A DNA stretch of 64,000 bases from the NCBI RefSeq assembly GCF_003353065.1, contig NZ_CP027806.1:1942501-2006500 (forward strand), given 5' to 3'. Below are positions 24,709-27,257 of this stretch, piece by piece; the first letter of the stretch is position 1, and each line of letters opens with the position of its first letter. The translations under genes and the position numbers were made by a program. The DNA is from Cyclonatronum proteinivorum. GTDB lineage: Bacteria > Bacteroidota > Rhodothermia > Balneolales > Cyclonatronaceae. The notes beneath the pieces are model-generated. The model worked only from the letters and a program-made list of their open reading frames with translations, had not been told where the DNA came from and searched no databases.

Positions 24709-24736
24709 TGACGTACCGCTTGTGATGATTACGTCA
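24709..24736. promoter_or_regulatory. Candidate upstream activator site (inverted repeat)
   Basis: TGACGTA at 24709-24715 and its exact complement TACGTCA at 24730-24736 are separated by 14 bases. The centre lies about 113 bases upstream of the expected start of the sigma-54 promoter at 24810-24825, a distance usual for binding sites of sigma-54 activators. Seven-base arms can occur by chance, so this is only a candidate. Confidence 0.35.
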
Positions 24737-24809
24737 GGCGCTGATACAATTATGGCAGACCGTGACTGGCCATTGACAATACGACAGGTGCACCAAGGGG
24801 GACTTTTTT

Positions 24810-24825
24810 TGGCACTATGTTTGCA
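24810..24825 (+). promoter_or_regulatory. Sigma-54 (RpoN) promoter for hsp20-dnaK
   Basis: TGGCACTATGTTTGCA matches the -24/-12 consensus (TGGCAC, five bases, TTGC, then A or T) at every fixed position with correct spacing. Transcription would start near 24836, giving a leader of about 29 bases before the GTG of the small heat-shock gene. No other promoter-like sequence is as clear here. Confidence 0.75.
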
Positions 24826-24864
24826 AAAGATGGGTGAAACTAAATTCAACTCACCTGAACAAGC

Positions 24865-25299
24865 GTGTCTCAATTTAACATCAGCGAACTTGAAAACAGA
24901 CTTGCCGAGCTGGGCAGGGACGTGCAGAAGTTTGCCGAAAACATTGGTTTAAGTACTGTTTCTGAACGGGAAACGGGTTTTAACCCGCGTCTTGACGTTC
25001 TTAAAGAACCACATGTAGTAACGGTTCTGATGGATTTACCCGGAATGGAAAAAGACGATATACACGTCGGTCTTTCCGGTAATCAGCTCACCATATCCGG
25101 CAAGAGAGAAATTTTTTATGCGACTGAAGCGGAAACGCTCAAAAAAGAGCGGCAGACCGGAGCCTTCACGCGCGCTGTTTCCATGTCGGCTCATGCCAAT
25201 GCAGCCGGCATTAAAGCCGTTTTTCGGAACGGGGTACTGCGGGTAACGATACCGATCGGGCCTGAAGTGCCAAATACCGATAAGATCATCATAGAATAA
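24865..25299 (+). CDS. Small heat shock protein, Hsp20/alpha-crystallin family
   Basis: An ATP-independent holdase that keeps denaturing proteins soluble. The 144-residue protein has a short N-terminal arm ([15 protein letters not shown]), then an alpha-crystallin domain: [41 protein letters not shown], a short Arg-containing segment ([16 protein letters not shown]), and the family-typical NGVLRVTIP. The C-terminus is short and ends EIIIE-like (TDKIIIE). The start is a GTG; the upstream frame has no better start. The dnaK start lies 30 bases further on, so the two form an operon, apparently driven by the sigma-54 promoter at 24810. Confidence 0.92.
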
Positions 25300-25328: not shown

Positions 25329-27257
25329 ATGGGAAAAATTATAGGAATTGACCTCGGAACAACCAACTCTTGCGTTTCCGTAATGGAAGGCAACGACCCG
25401 GTTGTTATCCCGAATGCAGAAGGCGGCAGAACAACGCCTTCAGTAGTTGCTTTCAGCAAAGACGGCGAGCGCCTTATCGGTGCACCGGCCAAACGTCAGG
25501 CGATTACCAACCCGCAGAAAACGATTGCTTCCATTAAGCGCTTTATGGGGCGTAAATATGATGAAGTAACCAACGAAATTGCCGACAACCCCTACGATGT
25601 TGTCCGCGGCGATGACGGTACTGCGCGTGTGAATATCGATGACCGCAAGTACGCTCCGCAGGAAATTTCTGCCATGGTACTTCAGAAAATGAAGCAGACC
25701 GCAGAAGAGTACCTCGGCGAAAAAGTTACCGAAGCCGTAATTACTGTGCCCGCCTATTTCAACGATGCACAGCGTAAGGCAACGCAGGAAGCCGGTGCTA
25801 TTGCAGGTCTTGAAGTGAAGCGGATCATCAACGAGCCAACCGCTGCAGCCCTCGCGTATGGCCTCGACAAGAAAGATAAAAACCAGACCATCGCAGTCTA
25901 TGACCTTGGCGGCGGTACCTTCGATATTTCCGTGCTCGAGCTCGGTGATGGTGTTTTCGAAGTGAAGTCAACCAACGGTGACACGCACCTTGGTGGCGAT
26001 GACTTTGACACACGTATCATCAAATTCCTTGTGCAGGAATTCAAAAACAGCGACGGTATTGATCTGAGCAACGATGCCATGGCCATGCAGCGCCTCAAGG
26101 ACGCCGCTGAAAAAGCCAAAATCGAGCTCTCAAGTTCATCCAAGACCAACATTAACCTGCCGTTCATTACGGCAGATTCAAGTGGTCCTAAGCACATGAA
26201 CATCGACCTTTCCCGCTCCAAGTTTGAGCAGCTGGTTGATGATTTGGTGAAGCGTACCCTTGAGCCTTGCGAAAAAGCGATTAAGGACGCCAAAATCTCC
26301 AAGAGTCAGATTGATCAGGTTATTTTGGTGGGCGGCTCAACCCGTATTCCGAAAATTCAGGAATCTGTTAAAGCCTTTTTCGGTAAAGACCCAAGCAAAG
26401 GCGTTAACCCCGACGAAGTTGTAGCCGTAGGCGCAGCCATTCAGGGTGGCGTTCTCACCGGTGATGTGAAAGACGTGGTACTTCTTGATGTAACCCCGCT
26501 TTCTCTCGGTATTGAAACCCTTGGCGGTGTGATGACCAAACTCATCGACGCCAATACCACGATCCCGACCAGCAAGAAGGAAGTCTTCTCTACGGCTGCG
26601 GATAACCAAACGTCCGTTGAAATCCACATTTTGCAGGGTGAGAGAACCCGTGCGATGGATAACCGTACCCTCGGCAAATTCCACCTCGACGGAATCCCGC
26701 CTGCACCACGCGGCATGCCACAGGTTGAAGTGACCTTCGATATCGACGCAAATGGCGTGCTGAATGTGAGCGCAAAGGATAAGGCTACCGGTAAGGAGCA
26801 GAAAATCCGTATCGAATCAAGCTCAGGTCTTTCTGAAGCAGAAATCGAAAAAATGCGTCAGGCGGCGCAGGAGCACGCGGACGAAGACAAGAAAATCCGC
26901 GAGCGCATTGACAAGCTCAATCAGGCTGACTCCCTGATTTTCTCAACGGAGAAGCAGCTGACCGAATTCGGTGATAAGCTTTCTGAAGGAACCAAAGCTT
27001 CCATCACACAGGCACTGAATGATCTGAAAGAAGCCCATAAAGCTGAAGATGTTGACGCCATCGACGCCAAAGTCGAAGCACTGAACAAAGCATGGGCTGA
27101 CGCAACCCAAGAAATGCAGGCCGCAGCCGGTGCAGGCGCACAGCCCGGCGCAGGTCCTGATATGGGCGCCGAAGCAGATCAGCAGCAGGCTTCAGATGAC
27201 GGTGCGGTTGATGCCGATTACGAAGTCGTTGATGACAACGAGCAGAAGAAAGATTAA
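25329..27257 (+). CDS. dnaK: Chaperone DnaK (Hsp70)
   Basis: The ATP-driven chaperone Hsp70. It has the normal length of 642 residues. The signatures are [18 protein letters not shown] at the N-terminus, [44 protein letters not shown], then the substrate-binding domain ([35 protein letters not shown]) and a lid ending in a Gly-, Ala- and Asp-rich tail closing with DDNEQKKD. grpE and a classical zinc-finger dnaJ are not adjacent; instead dnaK follows hsp20. A terminator hairpin lies just downstream. Confidence 0.98.

Follow-up and report, generated by a model that had tools for sequence, protein, structure and literature searches.

The window analysed here is a 64,000-nt stretch of the Cyclonatronum proteinivorum genome (contig NZ_CP027806.1, positions 1,942,501 to 2,006,500, forward strand); positions in it are given without prefix, and genome positions as C1. 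It contains a chaperone operon on the plus strand, consisting of hsp20, which encodes a small heat-shock protein of 144 aa (24865..25299, GTG start at 24865; Pfam PF00011, E = 5.5e-16), and dnaK, which encodes an Hsp70 of 642 aa (25329..27257; NCBIfam NF001413, 1037.7 bits, over the cut-off). The first gene is hsp20, and dnaK follows 29 nt downstream, a gap that is too short for a separate promoter of the sigma-54 type. Between aroA (stop codon 24680-24682) and the hsp20 GTG lies TGGCACTATGTTTGCA (24810..24825, plus strand), a perfect -24/-12 element assigned by sequence match and by its conservation in Balneolales, with the hsp20 start 40 nt further downstream. This agrees with a sequence-only reading of the window, in which a consensus sigma-54 promoter 40 bases before hsp20 was proposed to drive hsp20 and dnaK. 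The TGGCAC-N5-TTGC context places 10 nt between the -24 GG and the -12 GC. Because this GG-N10-GC spacing is the canonical -24/-12 geometry, the transcription start is predicted at 24836, which gives a predicted 5' untranslated region of 29 nt (24836..24864, plus strand), inferred from the position of the -12 element.

Conservation of the promoter in Balneolales

All 30 of the first relatives with an hsp20-dnaK pair carried TGGCA[CT]N5TTG 41-68 nt before the hsp20 match, and dnaK lay downstream of hsp20 in 30 of 30 relatives checked. The same element was found in named GTDB genomes including Gracilimonas, Rhodohalobacter, Balneola, Fodinibius and Aliifodinibius. Of 82 Balneolales promoters lying before hsp20-dnaK or dnaK, 79 had the site in a strict form, TGG[CT]A[CT]N5TTG[CT], where dinucleotide shuffles predict 0.2, which excludes a chance match; the TGG and TTG columns of this 82-promoter set are fixed by the search pattern, and the intervening spacer varies. 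Three promoters carried a weakened -12 element (TTGA or TTGG).

In one family (f3), most genomes have a dnaK without an adjoining hsp20. Among the f3 genomes that lack hsp20 before dnaK, the element stood directly upstream of dnaK in 16 of 16, in its strict form in 15. Many f3 genomes also contain an AAGTAA-N(5-8)-TTACTT inverted repeat followed by GACGAATGTTA in the dnaK leader, between promoter and gene; the repeat may serve as an operator or form a structure in the leader.

A conserved site at fixed distance upstream

Upstream of the promoter, conservation marked out a 13-bp activator-type site (UAS) of the TGNC-N5-GNCA type, TGACAATACGACA (24774..24786, plus strand), which begins 36 nt before the TGG and is centred at about -56. 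With the first T left free in the test pattern, 76 of 79 promoters had TGNC-N5-GNCA, most commonly as TGTCAATACGTCA, with its first base 35-37 nt ahead of the TGG; chance predicts 0.16. The combination of UAS and promoter occurred once in the window (0.00 expected). Across 98 Balneolales genomes, 28 of the 36 exact copies of TGTCAATACGTCA were located at the dnaK promoter, 27 of them before hsp20 and 1 directly before dnaK, and the site looks dedicated to dnaK. A search for TGNCAATNCGNCA elsewhere in the C. proteinivorum genome found no second regulon member. The only other hsp20 gene detected in the genome (C1:2007996, just beyond the window end) has TGNCA half-sites near -28 and -57 relative to its own TGG. 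The exact TGNC-N5-GNCA form was not found at htpG or hslVU, and the htpG genes of the genus have a sigma-54 site and no such UAS.

The sequence-only reading had placed a candidate activator site at about -113. The inverted repeat TGACGTA-N14-TACGTCA is indeed there (24709..24736, no strand assigned) and is unique in the genome, but it was absent upstream in five relatives of the same genus, and we rejected it as the enhancer; the conserved UAS is the site at 24774-24786. The repeat is composed of the same TGAC/GTCA half-sites as the UAS and is at best an extra peculiar to this species, possibly an accessory pair of half-sites.

Sigma-54 enhancers typically lie at about -80 to -200, farther out than this UAS with its fixed spacing and its centre near -56. 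The site might thus bind a repressor or an accessory or architectural protein instead, with the -24/-12 promoter real and the activator acting from solution or from elsewhere. The fixed 35-37 nt to the -24 element, unusual for an enhancer that works by looping, speaks for such an operator. The palindromic TGNC/GNCA form, however, suits a dimer of Fis-type helix-turn-helix (HTH) domains, and the recurrence of TGNCA half-sites upstream of the second hsp20 also argues against it, so that we consider this explanation unlikely.

RpoN and candidate activators

The presence of rpoN and of an activator gene had been proposed as a check on the promoter assignment, with a lack of rpoN counting as its refutation, and both were found. 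The genome has one full rpoN (C1:3074888-3075355, E = 1.2e-54), whose product carries all three sigma-54 domains (AID, CBD and DBD), and three sigma-54 activators, all of them AAA+ proteins with a Fis-type HTH. Two of these have a receiver domain, an orphan NtrC-like protein (C1:3100523) and a kinase-adjacent one (C1:1845769). The third, encoded between miaB and lptE, has PF00158 and PF02954 and no PF00072, and is thus receiver-less. The kinase-linked gene (L051:7326-8687; C1:1845325-1846686) adjoins genes for a histidine kinase and a PhnD-like binding protein, and its product has GAFSGA instead of GAFTGA in the loop.

A census of 41 genomes gave 36 with the miaB-lptE activator, 26 with the orphan response regulator and 8 with the kinase-linked activator. 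All 22 genomes of at least 95% completeness had the miaB-lptE activator; the five assemblies in which it did not turn up are incomplete, and in G021 and G024 among them only another activator was seen. Its lptE neighbour is conserved, and miaB usually so. In three genomes of 80-93% completeness (G029, G031 and G039), it was the only activator detected, and promoter and UAS were both kept.

The census weakened the case for either response regulator as the dnaK activator. That one of them (C1:3100523 or C1:1845769), rather than the miaB-lptE protein, binds the UAS of a real sigma-54 promoter would be in keeping with both being intact sigma-54 activators with receiver domains, and with the occurrence of the first type in 26 of the 41 genomes. 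Against this, the C1:3100523 type is missing in most f3 genomes, including two nearly complete ones (G012, 98%, and G015, 97%) that have promoter and UAS; the C1:1845769 type is confined to the 8 genomes noted above; and neither was seen in three f3 genomes that retain promoter and UAS. We therefore judge it improbable that a response regulator fills this role. By elimination, the miaB-lptE protein is the best activator candidate.

The AAA+ domain relates this candidate to PspF, ZraR and NtrC. It resembles PspF of the phage-shock system in combining an AAA+ domain with a Fis-type HTH in the absence of a receiver domain, and differs from it in a long linker before the HTH, in its miaB-lptE location and in its proposed chaperone targets. 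Scored against the NCBIfam PspF model, it reached 290.9 bits, below the cut-off of 443.55, and by this test is not a PspF orthologue.

Other promoter classes at hsp20-dnaK

HrcA/CIRCE and sigma-32 systems control the same target genes in other heat-shock responses, but no element of either kind was found in the window: CIRCE (TTAGCACTC-N9-GAGTGCTAA) gave no match with up to 3 mismatches allowed, and the sigma-32 promoter CTTGAA-N11-18-CCCATNT gave none. No sigma-70-like element was found at the hsp20-dnaK promoter. The proposal of sigma-54 control at this promoter is supported, although the idea is less novel than it appeared, sigma-54 enrichment at Bacteroidota chaperone genes having been predicted in a 2025 survey discussed below.

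The Bacteroidota housekeeping promoter combines a -7 element, TAnnTTTG, with a TTG at about -33. A -7 match, TATGTTTG, occurs once upstream of hsp20, at 24816-24823, inside the -24/-12 element, and would allow a housekeeping promoter to drive the operon, with the -24/-12 match coincidental. No TTG was found 15-30 nt upstream of TATGTTTG, however, and the full pattern is lacking. Moreover, the TAnnTTTG letters fall in the variable spacer, with A there in only 13 of 78 promoters, whereas TGG and TTG[CT] are nearly universal (TGG and TTG being set by the search pattern). We excluded the motif because of its location in this non-conserved spacer, and a housekeeping promoter at this position is very improbable.

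Sigma-54 sites elsewhere in the genome

Scoring of TGGCAC-N5-TTGC sites across the genome had also been suggested, and a search with the exact pattern gave a divided answer: the count was unremarkable, but the locations were not. The window contains one match against 0.20 expected, and 17% of shuffles contain one; the 4.29-Mb genome contains 7, against 13 for a reversed control pattern. In neither window nor genome does the bare count exceed chance, and by itself it is weak evidence; for this reason location and conservation were used as evidence instead. Four of the seven genomic sites lie just upstream of heat-shock operons, namely hsp20-dnaK, the second hsp20, htpG (L004) and hslV-hslU (L007), a coincidence with a chance probability of about 3e-14 on the assumption of about 10 such operons in the genome. 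A fifth site (L002:1501-1516; C1:417587) precedes an fmdB-like gene, and two are within coding regions (L003 and L008). The variant TGGCATN5TTGC gave 4 matches in this genome, all of them away from any evident promoter.

The second hsp20 and the htpG genes of the genus likewise retain sigma-54 sites. The recurrence at three other heat-shock operons, together with conservation across Balneolales, bears out the proposed sigma-54 promoter of hsp20-dnaK; both conservation and location are far beyond chance. That the -24/-12 match arose by chance, with the chaperones under sigma-32, HrcA/CIRCE or sigma-70 as usual, would fit the site counts but is scarcely credible in view of the four heat-shock operons, the conservation in about 80 genomes and the lack of a CIRCE, sigma-32-like or sigma-70-like match at the promoter.

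Among the htpG genes read, a perfect sigma-54 site was present in all 5 genomes of the genus with a readable htpG start; no perfect site was seen at htpG in the other families read, and most other Balneolales families yielded no htpG. The fmdB-like gene encodes a zinc-ribbon protein (MPTYEYIREDG...), with the exact site about 55 nt upstream and an aspartate aminotransferase gene preceding the site. The sigma-54 chaperone regulon of this organism probably comprises hsp20-dnaK, the second hsp20, htpG and hslVU, with the fmdB-like gene as a possible further member.

Distribution beyond Balneolales and relation to known systems

Among 28 Bacteroidota genomes outside the class, 16 had a sigma-54-like site within 200 nt of dnaK, against 0.08 expected, and others had such a site before an upstream hsp20. 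At seven loci from several other Bacteroidota families, the -12 of the dnaK site reads TTGA, not TTGC. Nine members of the class (Rhodothermia) outside Balneolales showed no such site within 200 nt of dnaK. At five loci of other Rhodothermia, CGGCA[CT]N5TTGA[GT] and no TGGCAC was found before dnaK, in some with TGACATTCTGACGCAC upstream; this sequence is possibly a drifted sigma-54 promoter.

The distribution outside the class fits the enrichment in Flavobacteriia, Bacteroidia and Cytophagia reported by Carrera-Reyna, Cruz-Flores and Merino (2025, PLoS One, PMC12316311), who computed sigma-54 sites to be enriched at GroEL, IbpA, GroES, GrpE, DnaJ, DnaK, HSP90 and protease genes. The survey covers Bacteroidota and Planctomycetota; its main text names these three classes and not Balneolales or Rhodothermia. 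It does not assign activators to the chaperone promoters and, in the sections considered here, does not describe an enhancer element. For what it says on B. thetaiotaomicron and F. psychrophilum, the survey refers to the genome paper of a Blattabacterium (its ref. 80). Sigma-54 at chaperone genes is common to that prediction and to our analysis. The principle is not new for Bacteroidota chaperones, and the additions made here are the predicted Balneolales regulon, the fixed putative enhancer and the candidate activator.

Sigma-54 transcription of a small heat-shock gene is also on record for E. coli ibpB, as cited in PMC4370416. There sigma-54 adds to sigma-32 control, whereas the hsp20-dnaK promoter has no sigma-32-like element and dnaK itself is included. 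Our literature search on chaperone induction in Bacteroidota-related bacteria turned up a single computational survey but no experiments, and chaperone switching in these bacteria appears to have been little studied.

Proposed mechanism

Taken together, the comparisons make it highly probable that hsp20-dnaK has a real sigma-54-dependent promoter within a small chaperone regulon. The promoter would be opened by an activator bound at the UAS, for which the miaB-lptE protein is the likeliest candidate. From the sequence comparisons, we infer that RpoN transcribes hsp20-dnaK, that the miaB-lptE activator binds the site at 24774-24786, and that the circuit responds to heat or misfolded protein. 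In the proposed pathway, RNA polymerase with RpoN would be held as a closed complex at the -24/-12 element. A hexameric AAA+ activator on the TGNC-N5-GNCA site, at about -56 with near-constant spacing, would then hydrolyse ATP, opening the complex. This activator would be the receiver-less miaB-lptE protein, with its PspF-like plan of an AAA+ domain plus Fis-type HTH, and the signal might, for example, free it from a chaperone or another negative partner.

A broader proposal can be advanced tentatively, and we hold it to be somewhat less probable than its negation: that this is an old, phylum-wide heat-shock circuit of Bacteroidota, in which sigma-54 and a dedicated receiver-less miaB-lptE activator at a fixed site near -56, perhaps restrained by a chaperone, replace sigma-32 and HrcA.

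The putative enhancer and the single candidate activator narrow a general prediction to one promoter, one 13-bp site and one protein. They also suggest what a widely conserved activator, apparently of no known role, may act on. Judging from their promoters, the chaperones of Balneolales seem to be activated by another route than those of E. coli or Bacillus. If the sigma-54 circuit is true, their silent promoters would be opened through ATP hydrolysis, and not by a swap of sigma factors or the loss of a repressor.
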